From Branchiostoma floridae (Eukaryota; Chordata; Leptocardii; Amphioxiformes; Branchiostomatidae), in the NCBI RefSeq assembly GCF_000003815.2, contig NC_049983.1, forward strand, positions 8,707,943 through 8,771,942: a stretch of 64,000 nt of DNA, given 5' to 3'. How positions within the stretch are numbered: position 1 is the first letter of the stretch; every line of letters begins with the position of its first letter. Under the pieces are notes generated by a model that saw only the letters and a list, made by a program, of their open reading frames with translations, was not told the DNA's origin and did not search any database. The position numbers were made by a program, and so were the translations under genes. Below, in pieces: positions 1 through 63,331 of this stretch.

Positions 1-556
1 GGGGGGTAACCGCTAACGCTAAATGAGCCTTTCGATAAAGCAAAAAGCGTCCCCTTGCGATTGGACTTACTAATTTTCAAACAAAATGTGCGTTACTTTC
101 TACACGTGAATATCATAGTAAAACGCGTTGGCAGAAGGTAGAAAGTTATTTGAGTACCAAAAATTTGACTTTTCTAGACACGAATGAAAGGCTCACCTCG
201 GGGGTAACCGCTAACGCTAAATGAACCTTTCGGTAACCGCAAAAAGCGACCACTTACGATTGGACTTACAAATTTTCAAACAAAATGTGCGTTACTTTCA
301 ACACGTGAATATCATAGTAAAACACGTTGGCAGAAGGTAGAAAGTTATTTGAGTACCAAAAATTACTTTTTGACTTTTCTACACACGAATGAATGGCTCA
401 CATTGGGGGTAACCGCTAACGCTAAATGAACCTTTCGGTAACCGCAACAAGCGACCCATTACGATTGGACTTACAAATTTTCAAACAAAATGTGCGTTAC
501 TTTCCACAACCTTGATTTATATCATTAAGTAAAACACGTTGGATGAAGTAGAAAGT

Positions 557-824
557 NNNNNNNNNNNNNNNNNNNNNNNNNNNNNNNNNNNNNNNNNNNN
601 NNNNNNNNNNNNNNNNNNNNNNNNNNNNNNNNNNNNNNNNNNNNNNNNNNNNNNNNNNNNNNNNNNNNNNNNNNNNNNNNNNNNNNNNNNNNNNNNNNNN
701 NNNNNNNNNNNNNNNNNNNNNNNNNNNNNNNNNNNNNNNNNNNNNNNNNNNNNNNNNNNNNNNNNNNNNNNNNNNNNNNNNNNNNNNNNNNNNNNNNNNN
801 NNNNNNNNNNNNNNNNNNNNNNNN
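557..824. other. Assembly gap inside satellite
   Basis: 268 N. Flanking units are in phase with the array, so the gap hides about 1.3 repeat units if its size is real. Confidence 0.99.
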
Positions 825-2069
825 GTAACCGCTAACGCTAAATGAACCTTTCGGTAACCGCAAAAAGCGACCCCTTACGATTGGACTTACAAATTTTCAA
901 CCAAAATGTGCGTTACTTTCCACACTTGAATATCATAGTAAAACACGTTGGCAGAAGGTAGAAAGTTATTTGAGTACCAAAAATTACTTTGTGACTTTTC
1001 TAGACACGAATGAAAGGTTCACCTGGGGGGTAACCGCTAACGCTAAATGAACCTTTCGGTAACCGCAACAAGCGACCCCTTACGATTGGACTTACAATTT
1101 TCAACAAAATGTGCGTTACTTTCACACTTGAATATCATAGTAAAACACGTTGGCAGAAGGTAGAAAGTTATTTGAGTACCAAAAATTACTTTGTGACTTT
1201 TGTAGACACAAATGAAAGGCTCACCTGGGGGGTAACCGCTAACGCTAAATGAACCTTTCGATAAAGCAAAAAGCGACCCCTTACGATTGGACTTACAAAT
1301 TTTCAAACAAAATGTGCGTTACTTTCAACAATTGAATATCATAGTAAAACACGTTGGATGAAGGTAGAAAGTTATTTGAGTACCAAAAATTACTTGGTGA
1401 CTTTTCTAGACACGAATGAAAGGCTCACCTGGGTGGTACCCGCTAACGCTAAATGAACCTTTCGGTAACCGCAAAAAGCGACCCCTTACGATTGGATTTA
1501 CAAATTTTCAAACAAAATGTGCGTTACTTTCAACACTTGAATATCATAGTAAAACACGTTGGCAGAAGGTAGAAAGTTATTTGAGTACCAAAAATTACTT
1601 TGTGACTTTTGTAGACACGACTGAGAGGCTCACCTGGGTGGTAACCGCTAACGCTAAATGAACCTTTCGGTAACCGCAACAAGCGACCCCTTACGATTGG
1701 ACTTACAAATTTTCAAACAAAATGTGCGTTACTTTCAACACTTGAATATCATAGTAAAACACGTTGGCAGAAGGTAGAAAGTCATTTGAGTACCAAAAAT
1801 TACTTTGTGACTTTTGTAGACACGAATGAAAGGCTCTCCTGTGGGGCAACCGCTACAATAATGACCCTTTCGGTACCGCAACAAGCGACCCCTTACGATT
1901 GGACTTACAAATTTTCAACCCAAATGTGCCGTACTTTCAACACTTGAATATCATAGTAAAACACGTTGGCAGAAGGTAGAAAGTTATTTGAGTACCAAAA
2001 ATAACTTTGTGACTTTTCTAGACACGAATGAAAGGCTCACCTGGGGGGTAACCGCTATGCTAATGAACC

Positions 2070-2304
2070 NNNNNNNNNNNNNNNNNNNNNNNNNNNNNNN
2101 NNNNNNNNNNNNNNNNNNNNNNNNNNNNNNNNNNNNNNNNNNNNNNNNNNNNNNNNNNNNNNNNNNNNNNNNNNNNNNNNNNNNNNNNNNNNNNNNNNNN
2201 NNNNNNNNNNNNNNNNNNNNNNNNNNNNNNNNNNNNNNNNNNNNNNNNNNNNNNNNNNNNNNNNNNNNNNNNNNNNNNNNNNNNNNNNNNNNNNNNNNNN
2301 NNNN
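2070..2304. other. Assembly gap inside satellite
   Basis: 235 N within the satellite array. Confidence 0.99.
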
Positions 2305-3538
2305 GATTGGACTTACAAATTTTCAACCAAAATGTGCGTTACTTTCAACACTTGAATATCATAGTAAAACACGTTGGCAGAAGGTAGAAAGTTATTTGAG
2401 TACCAAAAATTACTTTGTGACTTTTCTAGACACAAATGAAAGGCTCGCCTGGGGGGTAACCGCTAACGCTAAATGAACCTTTCGGTAACCGCAACAAGCG
2501 ACCCCTTACGATTGGACTTACAAATTTTCAAGCAAAATGTGCGTTACTTTCCACACTTGAATATCATAGTAAAACACGTTGGCAGAAGGTAGAAAGTTTT
2601 TTGAGTACCAAAAATTACTTTGTGACTTTTCTAGACACGAATGAAAGGCTCACCTGGGGGGGTAACCGCTAATGCTAAATGAACCTTTCGGAAACCACAA
2701 CAAGCGACCCCTTACGATTGGACTTACAAATTTTCAACCAAAATGTGCGTTACTTTCCACACTTGAATATCATAGTAAAACACGTTGGCAGAAGGTAGAA
2801 AGTTATTTGAGTACCAAAAATTACTTTGTGACTTTTCTAGACACGAATGAAAGGCTCACCTGGGGGGTAACCGCTAATGCTAAATGAACCTTTCGGAAAC
2901 CGCAACAAGCGACCCCTTACGATTGGACTTACAAATTTTCAACCAAAATGTGCGTTACTTTCAACACTTGAATATCATAGTAAAACACGTTGGCAGAAGG
3001 TAGAAAGTTATTTGAGTACCAAAAATTACTTTGTGACTTTTCTAGACACGAATGAAAGGCTCACCTGGGGGGGGGGGGGAACCGCTAACGCTAAATGAAC
3101 CTTTCGGTAACCGCAAAAAACGACCCCTTACGATAGGACTTACAAATTTTTCAAGAAAATGTGCGTTACTTTCAACACTTGAATATCATAGTAAAACACG
3201 TTGGCAGAAGGTAGAAAGTTATTTGAGTACCAAAAATTACTTTGTGACTTTTCTAGACACGAATGAAAGGCTCACCTGGGGGGTAACCGCTAACGCTAAA
3301 TGAACCTTAGCTCTAGCGGATAGGTGCATTTGAAATGCTAAATTTCGTGTCATATTTTTTATTGCCTAACAAACGTATCACTGCAATAGAAAGCAAAACT
3401 CAAAATAATACTTTGTTTTGATTTAATATTGCGGACATAAATAATGTGTGTTTTTACTCTCCAATCAGAGGTTGGTGGAAAAAATCGTGACCTTTTCCTT
3501 TCATCCGTTTTTAATTATTGACCTTTCCACGAAAACTA

Positions 3539-20942: not shown

Positions 20943-35446
<14,504 letters not shown>

Positions 35447-57309: not shown

Positions 57310-59356
57310 AATGGGTCCAGATGTGTGTGCTCAGATTTGGGAAAATACATAAAAAGCTACAATGTAACACCTCACAGTTGTCTGTTTTTGTGTACTTTGC
57401 ATTTGTCATTTTTACTCAGTTATTATGAGGTTACAAATGGCCAAGAACACCACTGGGAAGGGATAAAATTTGGACAGGTGTTCACTATTCTTAATGCTTG
57501 TGTTAATGAGGAAAATAATCTAACGGACCACCAAAAATGGTCATTGGTCACAGCCTGGTTTGTAGTACAGTTGTAAACTGTGTTGAAGTCCAGTTTTGAA
57601 AGCTGATCCTGGTAACTACATACTGTAATTCCTGATTTTTTCAATGTACTGTTATGTTCACGGTTTTCACGCTGACGACTGTAACGTGAACTTATCATTA
57701 CTGATAACAAATAATTCACAGCTTTTTTTTTTATGTGCACTCGCCGCAACAGTGAACATTTAGCTGAGAACAAGTTAAATTTTCTCAGACCATGAAAGTT
57801 TGGTACAGAGAAGACAAAGTGAATTACAGTATCTGAGATCTATTGGCTCTTTCAACTAAAAGCAAATTCAGTATATTCATACCTCACAGCACATTCCTTT
57901 AATGGAAAATCTTGAAGGTAGAAGTCTGTATAAACAAATCACTGCAATACATTATTCACTACAGTCATTAAGACTAAGAAAGGCATTTATAATGGGAGAT
58001 CCCAAACCTGCTTGTGAACATATAAAAAATACATCTACCCCGTTATATGATCTGACTGACCATAATGAAATGACCAGGAAACAAAAAGTGTTGAAATGTA
58101 TTTGTAATAATATTCAGTCTGGTGGTATTGCATTCAGAATTCCTAACGCCACTTCAAGTGTACCTGTAATAAAAAAAACACCTTTCCCAGTAATGCACCC
58201 AAATAAATGGATTTTTACCACAACATTACAATACCTGTACTAAACCAACATTAATGCACCCAGTATTACACAGTTAATGTCAGAGTTATAAACGGTAGAT
58301 GAAATTGCTAGTCACCAAATACAAATAAGTGTTAAAAACTGCTGCGTACATCGAGTCCCGCCAATCATACTTCTAGTGGTCTACAGACAAAATGTTTTCA
58401 CATGATGATATTTCCACAGTACAATACAGAAGTTAGCGGGAAGTCCCAAGTGACGAAAGCAGAATGAAAATTGAAATGATCAATTTTCTAACTTTGCCAA
58501 ACATCACATTGTAGTTGCAGTGACATGGAATACATGTATGTAAAGAGAAAGTTATAATTCAATGAAGAGATAACGATAAAATTGCTTTGAAGAAAGTGAC
58601 CCCCCCCCCCCCCACACACACTGCAGTGAGGATAGTCTAGAGCATCCAGAAAAAATTATTTGATTGTGAAGATACTGACTTGAATTTGACATCTCACTGA
58701 TGGTTTTGAATTAGCCACAATTTTTCCTCCATGATTATCAAATAAACTGCCCAAGTACACAACAAAATCAAAGAACAACTATTCACATGAAAGTGGTAAA
58801 AGTCAATTTTTAATGTTGTCTACTTCGTGCCAAATTGTTGGAACCATGATGTTTGGATTCAATCTGTGTATCTTTATATCCACTTTGGAAAAGCACAACT
58901 TCTATTACATAAACAATGTAACAGGTATCCATATATACAAACATAGAGCAACACAAACTTCATTGAATGGATGACATTGCATTTATACTGGCCAGTCTGA
59001 AAATATAAATGGCTTCTCTCAAAACAGGAACTTATGCAACATAACAATGCTTTCACAGCAGCAACAACATTGTAGTTGCAGGACATGTAGTTCTTTTCGT
59101 CCCTTTATATGCTGTACAGTATGAAACTGAGAGACTACATTATATGTAACACATCACCACCATAAAGTGATCTATAGTGATGTAATGTATTTGCAAAATA
59201 TTGCTTTTTCATGTATTAAAATGACCTTTTAAGCTTGCACTTTCCCTCATGAATTTATATCAAGAATATCCATAAGATGTTATCCATAATATCAAGTTTG
59301 TGTAACCTACGAACATAGAATTGTACAATTTAAGCATAGAAAAGGCACAGAGAACA
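57310..59356. other. Region between RPL18A and RAB29 3' ends
   Basis: Convergent gene ends. An AATACA hexamer near 57345 could serve RPL18A, and a minus-strand ATTAAA near 58807 could serve RAB29. A C run with CA repeats lies at about 58601-58620. The open frame at 57902-58243 has no family signature. Confidence 0.4.
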
Positions 59357-62300
59357 TCAGCTTCCACAGCAGCTCCTCCCTTCCTTCGCCTGCCTGACGT
59401 TGTCCTTGAGTTTGATGTGTCCTCCCTCAGCTTCTGTCTCCATGTTCCGCTGGGGCTGTGTGTCAGTGTGTCTGGCCAGGATTTCTTCAAGGAGGAAACT
59501 ACAGGCACAAAGGTTACATGTAAGTTACAAGGCAATCAGTGACGGCAGACTTCACCACCTTACTTATACTGGTTTGTCTACATGTTCCTCTGGGGCTGTG
59601 TGTCAGTGTGTCTGGCCAGGATTTCTTCCAGGAAGAAACTACAGGCACAAAGGTTACATGTAAGTTACAAGGCAATCAGTGACGGCAGACTTCACCACCT
59701 TGCTTATACTGTTTTGTGACCCGTCCATTCCCAATTAGTCTCTATGTTCCTCTGGGGCTGTGTCAGTGTGTCTGGCCAGGATTTCTTCCAGGAGGAAACT
59801 ACAGGCACAAAGGATAGGTTACAAGGCAATCAGTGACGGCAGACTTCACCACCTTACTTATACTGGTTTGTCTACATGTTCCTCTGGGGCTGTGTCAGTG
59901 TGTCTGGCCAGGATTTCTTCCAGGAGGAAACTACAGGCACAAAGGATAGGTTACAAGGCAATCAGTGACGTCAGACTTCACCACCTTACTTATACTGGTT
60001 TGTCTACATGTTCCTCTGGGGCTGTGTCAGTGTGTCTGGCCAGGATTTCTTCCAGGAGGAAACTACAGGCACAAAGGATAGGTTACAAGGCAATCAGTGA
60101 CGGCAGACTTCACCACCTTGCTTATACTGTTTTGTGACCCGTCCATTCCCAATTAGTCTCTATGTTCCTCTGGGGCTGTGTCAGTGTGTCTGGCCAGGAT
60201 TTCTTCCAGGAGGAAACTACAGGCACAAAGGATAGGTTACAAGGCAATCAGTGATGGCAGACTTCACCACCTTACTTATACTGGTTTGTCTACATGTTCC
60301 TCTGGGGCTGTGTCCGTGTGTCTGGCCAGGATTTCTTCCAGGAGGAAACTACAGGCACAAAGGATAGGTTACAAGGCAATCAGTGATGGCAGACTTCACC
60401 ACCTTACTTATACTGGTTTGTCTACATGTTCCTCTGGGGCTGTGTCCGTGTGTCTGGCCAGGATTTCTTCCAGGAGGAAACTACAGGCACAAAGGTTACA
60501 AAAAAAAGTAAGTTACAAGGCAATCAGTGACGGCAGACTTCACCACCTTACTTATACTGTTTTGTGACCCATTGTTTCCAACTTAGTCTCCATGTCCCTC
60601 TGGGGCTGTGTCCGTGTGTCTGGCCAGGATTTCTTCCAGGAGGAAACTACAAGCACAAAGGATAGGTTACAAGGCAATCAGGGATGGCCGACTTCATTCC
60701 CTTGCCTATACTACTTTGGGACCCACCCAGTCCCACAGACTGAACAGCTGAGCACTAAGGAAGTGGTATCCAATGGCTAAGTGGTTAGGCTAGGACACAA
60801 GATCTAGATATAACAGGTTTGACTCCTGTCTAAATGTGTCATTGGGAAAAGCACTTTACATGACTCCCCTCTCTCCACCCAGATGTAAATATGGGTACCT
60901 GACTGTGGCTGAGAAATATAGGGTAGAAGGAAGAGACTCCACAAGCCACCTTTTATAACAGCCCCTTTAACTGTCTCAAAAGGCAATGGAAGTTACTCTG
61001 AGTTCCTTTTCTAGTGTGTGAGAGCGTAGCAACATAGAAAATGTATGACAACACTGTATTGTATATATAAAGAAGCAAGAGACACACAAAAAGGCCCAAA
61101 ACAATAGCTCACTTTCTAGAGGGAATTAACCAGAAACCATGATAGATAAATGTCACATAATTGCAGTGATACTATGCTAAGATGAAAAAGAACAATACCA
61201 ACTTACTTCATAGACTCCTTTACATTGACATTGTCCTTGACTGATATCTCTGTCCATCCTATAAAGTTGTGTTCCTTACAGAACTCATTTACTTCTTCCT
61301 CTGTCACCGCCTTTTCTTGTAAATCAATCTGAAAGTAGCAGAGGACAAATCTAAAACACAGTGTACAGAGTACAGTGAATATGATTGAGAAATACATGTA
61401 ACGTTACTAAGGCAACAATAAATGACCTAATTTATCAGAAAAATCATAATTTTATTCACCTGTATCAGCAAATAGCAAATAAGAATACTTGTTCACACAC
61501 ACAGATGGAAATGTTTACCAATATTACATACAAAACTTCATATAAAACACAGCACTCGCCTTATTTGCTAGCAGCATACAAGGTACACAACGCCCGTCAG
61601 GAAGAGACACTTTTGAATCTAAGTCCTTTTTCCACTTTATGCAATTGTGGAATGTCTGTTTGGCCGTTACGTCAAAGATGATGACACAAGCAGAGGCATC
61701 CTTGTAGTAAACTCTTGTCATCGACGTAAATCTCTCCTGGCCTGGAAGAAAGCATACACGTATGAATCACGCTTTACCCAGTGGCAAGATAGAGGCATTA
61801 AAATGCCTGTCTTCTTACAATGTTGTATGTCTGTCATAGAAACATGATTGCTGACAAATTAAGGTACATAATAGATTGTGGTACTAGTAGCTTGAGTATA
61901 TCCCACACCTAGTGGCCAGCCCTTCTGACAGGCCCCTAGTCCCTGGCAGCAAGAGACTTGGTGACATGAGCTTTAAGTAGCACAAGCTATCTGCATATGT
62001 TCTGTTTAAGTGTTTCACTATATACTAGCAATTGTCAGGAATAACTTTTTCTCACCTGCAACATCCCATAACTGCAATCAATGTTTTCATGATATGAAAA
62101 AAAGGAAAGAAAGAATGAACAGTTATTTTCAGCAATTGACCATTGATCCAGTTGATTACACCTACATGTAATGTTACATGCAATAATAACATTCTAACAG
62201 TATTAGAAGATTTTTAATTACCTTTAATAAACCATCAAAACTTATAAAAACATATAACGTTATATCTATATATGTATATGTGCTGGTATGATATCCATTA

Positions 62301-63331
62301 ATATTCTGTATCTTTTAATATCAAATATTGTTTCAAGCAAAACGATTTGTTATTCCCCATTTATCCGCACTGAGCAATGGCATAACGTCACATGTTTACA
62401 ATTACTTCCTCACCTGAAATCTAACTGTGTCTTCCTCTGATATTTGAATGACCTTAAGTGCAAAATCAACTGTGAAAAACAGAAAGGTACATATATGTTA
62501 TGAACAGTAGAATGATCAATCAATCAATCAGCACATGACATTTTGGCACATGATCATTCGTGCCAACATTGGAATTCAGCAGACAAATTTTCAAGTGATA
62601 TAAACCAATGAAATACAAACACAGAAAGCAGCAAAAGATCTAAAAGTACAACCACCCTTCAAATCCAGAGAGGTAATGTTGCGGTATGCCTAAACACCAC
62701 AAATGACCACGAGGTGTGGTTGTTTTTAGTCATTTGTGGTGTTTAGACAGGCCTGTAATGTTGGAAAAGATTTAACATTAAGTTCTTGGCTTAAATCATT
62801 CCACAACTAAGGACTGTATTCTGGTTACAATTAAGAGGACTGTATTTTGGTTACATTTAAGAAGACTGTATTTTGGTTACATTTAAGAAGACTGTATTTT
62901 GGTTACATTTAAGAAGACTGTATTTTGGTTACATTTAAGAGGACTGTACTTTGGTTACATTTAAGAGGACTGTATTTTGGTTACATTTAAGAGGACTGTA
63001 CTTTGGTTACATTTAAGAGGACTGTATTTTGGTTACATTTAAGAGGACTGTATTTTGGTTACAATTTGGAGACAATCAAAATGATACGTGATAAACACAG
63101 TCAAAACGATAAGGGTCTAGTAAATACAACTGCACTGCATAACCACAACCAATGAGGTTATATAACCTCCTTGCCACAACATACAAATCCATCGAAACCA
63201 GTCTTAAACCTACCTCCCACCGTCGCCTTGTACTCCCTTTTGAAGGAGTCGTTGACGTACCGCTGCACAAACGACGTCTTCCCGACGGTGGCGTCACCGA
63301 TTATCAGGATCTTAAAGAGTCGTTCTGTCAT
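59357..63331 (-). CDS. RAB29-type small GTPase, 6 exons
   Basis: Exons: 63331-63214, 62469-62414, 62071-62056 (16 nt), 61741-61560, 61328-61207, 59498-59357; phases fit, total 211 residues (human RAB29 203). P-loop GDATVGKTSF (about residues 12-21), switch II WDVAGQERFTSMTR, NKID-type specificity motif LLANKID, and GWTEISVKDN in the SAK position. QERFTSMTR..YY.DASACVI and FCKEHNFIGWTE point to RAB29 within the RAB32/38/29 group. The C-terminus EGRSCCGS supplies a dicysteine prenylation site. RAB29 acts at the trans-Golgi and stressed lysosomes and recruits LRRK2 in mammals. Intron 4 uses a GC donor (AAG|GCGAGT). The start is the ATG at 63331. Confidence 0.93.
59520..60690 (-). repeat. Tandem array of partial RAB29 terminal-exon copies in intron 5
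   Basis: Eight extra copies of a unit (131-167 bp) lie beyond the genuine terminal exon. The plus-strand landmark tctggccaggatttctt occurs at about 59471 (genuine), then 59611, 59771, 59902, 60035, 60189, 60321, 60452 and 60619. On the minus strand nearly every copy has the acceptor ttgtgcctgtag followed by about 60 nt of exon sequence encoding FLLEEILARHTDT. The coding frame then hits a stop, so copies lack the dicysteine end. Confidence 0.93.
60776..60950 (+). mobile_element. tRNA-derived SINE
   Basis: Head taagtggttaggctaggaca with a box B-like ggtttgactcctg, then attgggaaaagcactttaca and tgtaaatatgggtacctg. Same layout as the minus-strand copies at 25405 and 32005. Confidence 0.65.
62056..62071 (-). 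other. RAB29 microexon 3, 16 nt
   Basis: Encodes LWDVA plus the first base of the Gly codon of the DxxG switch II motif. Acceptor tgattgcag and donor gtgaga are both good. Confidence 0.9.
62690..62746. repeat. 18 bp perfect hairpin in RAB29 intron 1
   Basis: Arms ctaaacaccacaaatgac (62690-62707) and its exact inverse (62729-62746), extended imperfectly outward. Probably a small fold-back MITE. Confidence 0.8.
62812..63064 (+). repeat. 26 bp minisatellite in RAB29 intron 1
   Basis: About ten copies of aagaggactgtattttggtt plus acattt, with copies alternating aagaag/aagagg and gtattt/gtactt. Confidence 0.95.

Follow-up and report, generated by a model that had tools for sequence, protein, structure and literature searches.

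Tandem arrays of splice junctions have already been published from lancelets under the name of mirages, and according to the accessible parts of two reports (PMC3087553, PMC3902484) they are known from Adh3, troponin C, the globins Gb6 and Gb9, and PGBD5, with units of 150-160 bp in Gb6, 10-72 bp in Adh3, and 60 and 108 bp in PGBD5. In the same accessible text, units of the Gb6 type keep their splice signals in many, not all, cases; the length of the clusters varies, the cause being called unclear in the globin paper; one mirage is described in that paper as apparently aberrantly assembled in the draft genome; and the Adh3 data together with RT-PCR of the globins suggest that mirages leave regular splicing undisturbed (PMC3087553, PMC3902484). 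The array described here, located in the last intron of a RAB29-like gene of Branchiostoma floridae, is probably a further and probably neutral case of these known mirages, and it resembles the Gb6 mirage, as far as the accessible descriptions go, in the duplication of the acceptor side and in a similar unit length.

The host gene lies in a window of 64,000 nucleotides, which is the whole stretch of DNA that was analysed, and occupies positions 63331-59357 of the minus strand, where six exons give an open spliced frame for a 211-aa Rab protein ending in GRSCCGS. Comparison by phmmer with the PDB gave Rab-7L1 as the best match (E 3.5e-69), followed by Rab-32 (2.7e-62) and Rab-38 (4.3e-59), so that among solved structures the predicted product appears nearest to Rab7L1/RAB29, not to Rab32/Rab38, and the gene is probably RAB29, of which Rab-7L1 is another name. 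Exon 3 (62071-62056) is a microexon of 16 nt, the donor of exon 4 is a GC (AAG/GCGAGT at 61560/61559), and intron 5 is 1,708 nt long. A sequence scan downstream of the gene to 57000 found no AATAAA, and an ATTAAA is present at 58814, downstream of the terminal exon. A literature search for Branchiostoma and RAB29 returned, in sources available in part, only work on Rab classification. A second minisatellite exists within the gene, in intron 1 (window 62810-63063, a 26-bp unit in 9.8 copies by TRF). Elsewhere in the window, two intact, diverged Rab GDI exon copies stand in a row on the minus strand (27539-28003), two stretches of which match Pfam GDI and which are possibly mutually exclusive exons, and positions 2-3308 hold a large tandem array of a 205-bp unit, within which there is a run of N. 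The features of the gene and of its array are as follows.

63331-63214, 62469-62414, 62071-62056, 61741-61560, 61328-61207 and 59498-59357, minus strand: RAB29-like exons, from the spliced reading frame
61207..61328, minus strand: exon 5, phase 2 end, donor GTAAGT
59357..59498, minus strand: authentic terminal exon, coding part, with GRSCCGS and stop, from the spliced frame; PDB relatives Rab-7L1, Rab-32 and Rab-38
59499..59638, minus strand: mirage copy 1, 140 nt; 2 nt kept in the exon part, in-frame TAG
59639..59798, minus strand: mirage copy 2, 160 nt, long-spacer type
59799..59930, minus strand: mirage copy 3, 132 nt
59931..60062, minus strand: mirage copy 4, 132 nt
60063..60216, minus strand: mirage copy 5, 154 nt, long-spacer type; shares 99% identity with copy 2, fitting the 418-bp period
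60217..60348, minus strand: mirage copy 6, 132 nt
60349..60480, minus strand: mirage copy 7, 132 nt
60481..60646, minus strand: mirage copy 8, 166 nt; the outermost copy and the one that diverges most

Eight tandem partial copies, each made of the acceptor and about 60 nt of exon, precede the terminal exon, with upstream acceptors at 59638, 59798, 59930, 60062, 60216, 60348, 60480 and 60646 on the minus strand and with acceptor-to-acceptor unit lengths of 140, 160, 132, 132, 154, 132, 132 and 166 nt. TRF reported periods of 132, 154, 286 and 418, a second repeat finder also detected the array, and a scan of it with the repeat core described below gave nine matches vs none in 100 shuffles, so these three approaches agree with the claim of the earlier note that eight tandem partial copies with intact acceptors stand before the RAB29 terminal exon; the spliced frame and the comparison of the copies likewise bear out its statement that the minisatellite unit consists of the gene's own acceptor plus about 60 nt of the terminal exon. 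The extent given there, 59357..60690, holds as regards the presence of the array, while the repeat homology runs slightly further, to about 60735 by TRF. Over the final 15 nt of the intron, eight of the nine acceptors, the authentic one included, do not differ from one another, and copy 8 has one change; a length variant lies just upstream of these 15 nt. Variants from unit to unit concern the type of spacer, GTGTCAG/GTGTCCG and the T-tract; by eye, the long-spacer copies and copy 8 have kept a spacer that resembles the sequence ahead of the outermost acceptor, and about 22 nt of this spacer are missing from the 132-nt copies. The aligned bases of copies 6 and 7 agree at 100%, and 300 nt at a distance of 418 bp show 99% identity.

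The array is likely to be a lancelet mirage, a minisatellite that arose by tandem duplication of a 3' splice site followed by block expansion, with copies that are mostly neutral passengers. The founding event would have been a tandem duplication of the end of intron 5 with the first ~60 nt of the last exon, by which exon 6 became joined to intron, and the duplicated intron end itself belongs to a dispersed repeat whose end reads CTGATTGCCTTGT. Unequal exchange or slippage may then have expanded the array in blocks of 132, 154 and 418 bp; the 418-bp period and the 99% identity over 300 nt fit such block expansion, and the period itself fits recent turnover of the array. The authentic exon is probably chosen in splicing, as only its acceptor would lead into a whole terminal exon and its poly(A) site. 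What counts against neutrality is that little local sequence separates the nine acceptors for the spliceosome, and, given the shared 15-nt intron end of eight of them, zero leaky use of the copies would be surprising; such leaky use would yield a Rab that is not prenylated.

The coding outcome of such use can be read from the copies directly. When joined to exon 5 (phase 2), all eight copies are in frame and all eight stop before SCC, as had been proposed from the sequence, and use of any of them would accordingly remove the prenylation site. The encoded peptide is NFLLEEILARHTDT in seven of the eight and NFFLEEILARHTDT in the copy at 59638; the early stop comes, as the same proposal held for most copies, with the loss of 2 nt in seven of eight, and the copy at 59638 keeps the 2 nt and ends at an in-frame TAG. 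A donor-like TAAGTAAGG occurs in six of the eight copies, 73-95 nt into the copy, with the stop 0-31 nt before its GT, and the other two carry GC instead of GT (TAAGCAAGG). The computed U1 duplex energy was -5.0 for TAAGTAAGG, -5.1 for the authentic exon 5 donor and -2.4 for TAAGCAAGG. The usual rule for NMD is a distance of 50 nt between the stop and a downstream junction. A transcript degraded by NMD, the other outcome suggested in the earlier note, mostly fails on this geometry, since no junction would follow a copy that serves as the terminal exon, and a stop 0-31 nt from the GT of TAAGTAAGG is too close for the rule; NMD was therefore rejected as the main outcome, and it could apply when at least two copies are included.

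The idea that the copies act as decoy acceptors, which compete for exon 5, lower the amount of prenylated RAB29 in favour of a soluble truncated form and let the copy number tune its level, seems improbable to us. It draws on eight near-identical in-frame acceptors that all stop before SCC, and on the lower diversity of the acceptor and exon part than of the intronic part: variation among the RAB29 copies is 0.018 in the acceptor and 0.020 in the first 41 exon nt against 0.092 in the intronic part, a value raised by variants at the junctions and by copy 8 at the edge. This lower variation is a weak hint of constraint and, together with the retention of the AG in all eight RAB29 copies, which says little alone, was counted against the neutral view. 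Over nine mirages including RAB29, however, the AG is kept in 27 of 31 scored exon-bearing copies where 25.9 would be expected if it decayed like the surrounding sequence, so its loss is about neutral, which argues against the upkeep of decoys as a class; four of the nine scored copies of locus L106 have lost it. The 31-copy set leaves out the globin context (not found) and locus L063 (no copy), and includes only two of the shorter copies of L065, those above the score limit; one of the L065 copies outside this limit has its AG shifted by one base. Single-copy use also fails the usual NMD geometry, and published mirages, as far as the accessible text goes, do not disturb regular splicing (PMC3087553, PMC3902484). 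The tuning of RAB29 by decoy acceptors, put forward in the earlier note, thus gained no positive support.

Inclusion of one or more copies as cassette exons before the authentic exon, each defined by its acceptor and the TAAGTAAGG donor and comparable with the published intron-seeding mirage model, is in our view very unlikely: TAAGTAAGG is present in six of eight copies with a U1 energy near that of the exon 5 donor, but two of eight have GC for GT with the weaker energy of TAAGCAAGG, and introns between 132-nt units would span only 59 nt. We give the least credence to an assembly artefact in copy number, by which a real array would be shorter or longer than assembled, as collapse or expansion is allowed by the highly identical 418-bp blocks and one published mirage was apparently misassembled in the draft genome according to the accessible part of the globin paper (PMC3087553, PMC3902484), but many units carry distinguishing variants, copies 6 and 7 with their complete identity being the exception.

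The likely reading of the array as a largely neutral mirage is extended by the composition of its unit, the intronic half of which corresponds to the 3' terminus of a dispersed repeat, with 16 matching places compared. Among the matches listed in a genome search with one unit, full-length matches occur only in the RAB29 array, and the others extend over no more than 69 of the 132 bases, fall in the intronic part and lie on many other contigs; the longest non-self match of the repeat comprises 122 of 161 query bases. Its 27-bp core, GGGTGAAGTCTGCCATCTCTGATTGCC, has 382 genome sites at up to 2 mismatches on many contigs (e.g. L026 1501-1527), against 0 sites for the reversed core at the same limit in the whole genome. 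Further comparisons used 100 of the 382 sites (44 perfect and 56 with one mismatch), and 83 loci around 95 of these 100 places were reduced to 73 by dropping 10 loci from the same arrays. In the RAB29 gene, two parts of the repeat lie as follows.

59531..59555, minus strand: core before the authentic RAB29 acceptor, possible branch A 38 nt from the exon
60669..60768, minus strand: 3' part of the repeat ahead of the outermost acceptor, extending beyond the array, from alignment to other loci

For the latter, the best-covered of 10 loci compared were L010 (74/92 identities, score 52) and L122 (70/93, score 43), and 20 shuffles of each alignment scored at most 25. At some loci the repeat extends further, up to about 120 nt with 71-79% identity, and most matches share the 3' end within a few bases. 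Pairwise comparison of single-copy loci gave homology upstream of the core with a median of 4, a 99th centile of 48 and a largest value of 224 nt, and downstream of it with a median of 3 and a largest value of 43 nt. In the RAB29 gene and in the array copies, 32-44 nt separate the A of CTGAT, a possible branch point, from the exon.

At 28 of 73 loci, an acceptor-like site with 40 or more open codons behind it lies within 60 nt on the downstream side of the core, compared with 97 of 993 in pooled controls from 14 windows (binomial p about 7e-11, the windows not being independent). The antisense window beside the core gave 14/73 and was excluded from the pooled control as the repeat's own conserved flank, an explanation of ours only. 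The acceptor-like site alone occurred in 40/73 downstream windows and 42/73 antisense windows, with 10 to 25 in each of the other 14 sets, so that the acceptor-like string by itself shows no orientation. When the longest open fragment per locus (cut at 70 aa) was taken from the downstream sense side of the 73 loci, Pfam matches were observed in five genes, namely Ig, kinesin and protein kinase above the cut-off, 5'-nucleotidase below it and a weak TSP1 (E 0.026), and upstream antisense open fragments from 72 loci gave no Pfam match. In the kinesin locus with the core, the exon match begins 15 nt after the core; in the set of 29 loci with an acceptor-like site and open frame at up to 70 nt, the first such site lies 10-68 nt after the core, within 37 nt in 27 of 29, with a median of 20, which places the A of CTGAT at a distance usual for branch points. 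Selection on the core through splicing was considered and rejected, an acceptor and frame following 12 of 32 perfect and 17 of 41 one-mismatch cores (Fisher p 0.81). In eight longer copies of the repeat, divergence was about equal in the core (316/365 identities) and in the upstream part (424/520). Rfam at gathering scores gave 0 matches in 5 repeat loci and a tRNA search 0 tRNAs in 9, and an origin as a SINE derived from a tRNA or known RNA was set aside, no such head being found in the loci searched. No report of the motif was found in the literature searched, most subscription papers lying outside its reach.

More than one core copy (up to 6 mismatches) is present at 17 of the 73 loci; tandem units with acceptor and exon were observed at L031, L053, L065, L101, L103 and L106 (6/73), and at L014 and L018 from the unit search, making eight exon-bearing arrays besides RAB29 that carry the repeat of the RAB29 array in their units, and core-only minisatellites with a spacing of 42-67 bp occur at L060, L064 and L009. 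A mirage-bearing stretch is found on two chromosomes, at L014 (C11) and L015 (C3), identical by eye over the stretch compared, and represents a duplicated gene or a misplaced haplotype. Among nine globin exon matches, one (L116, C18 near 7180855) is overlapped by a 158-bp unit in 4.2 copies, which probably represents the Gb6 mirage of the literature. Two partial copies of acceptor plus exon, 151-154 bp apart, stand before a kinesin exon (L127, C2:31967450-31968000); this was the one mirage case recognized by eye among 134 matches listed, a rough figure. The globin and kinesin mirages are without the core, and the proposition that mirages need the repeat was rejected. The link between repeat and mirages is suggestive only, because loci with several copies are likelier to be sampled by a motif search. 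We put forward tentatively, as a possibility on the doubtful side, that the repeat is a mobile 3' splice-site module, with a branch site and a T-rich tail, which was taken over or kept at hundreds of lancelet acceptors and predisposed them to tandem duplication, and which would be among the main origins of both mirages and alternative acceptors, with RAB29 as one case. If the link holds, it would offer a concrete cause for some mirages and a genome-wide test set.

Introners are mobile elements that generate introns, and the repeat is like them in its position near the 3' ends of introns of unrelated genes; its donor-like GTAAGG, branch-like CTGAT and often T-rich flank also recall them. It differs in the shortness of the homology, in that whole-intron copies are not evident, and in that RAB29 intron 5 extends over 1,708 nt; the homology, about 45-120 nt in nearly all comparisons, looks too short for an introner, and this reading is improbable. 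In exonisation of the Alu type, short repeats donate splice sites. The lancelet repeat is similar in its fixed 3' end and in a T/G-rich flank that can give a branch site and a pyrimidine tract, whereas the exons identified downstream of it are ordinary coding exons and not derived from the repeat. Compared with the mirages already published, the RAB29 array has a new host gene, its copies precede a last (terminal) exon, and its intronic half goes back to a dispersed repeat, which the accessible mirage literature does not mention. With it, a lancelet phenomenon that is poorly explained gains a sequence-complete example at a last exon, in which nine near-identical acceptors in a row represent a natural test of the choice of a terminal exon by the spliceosome.
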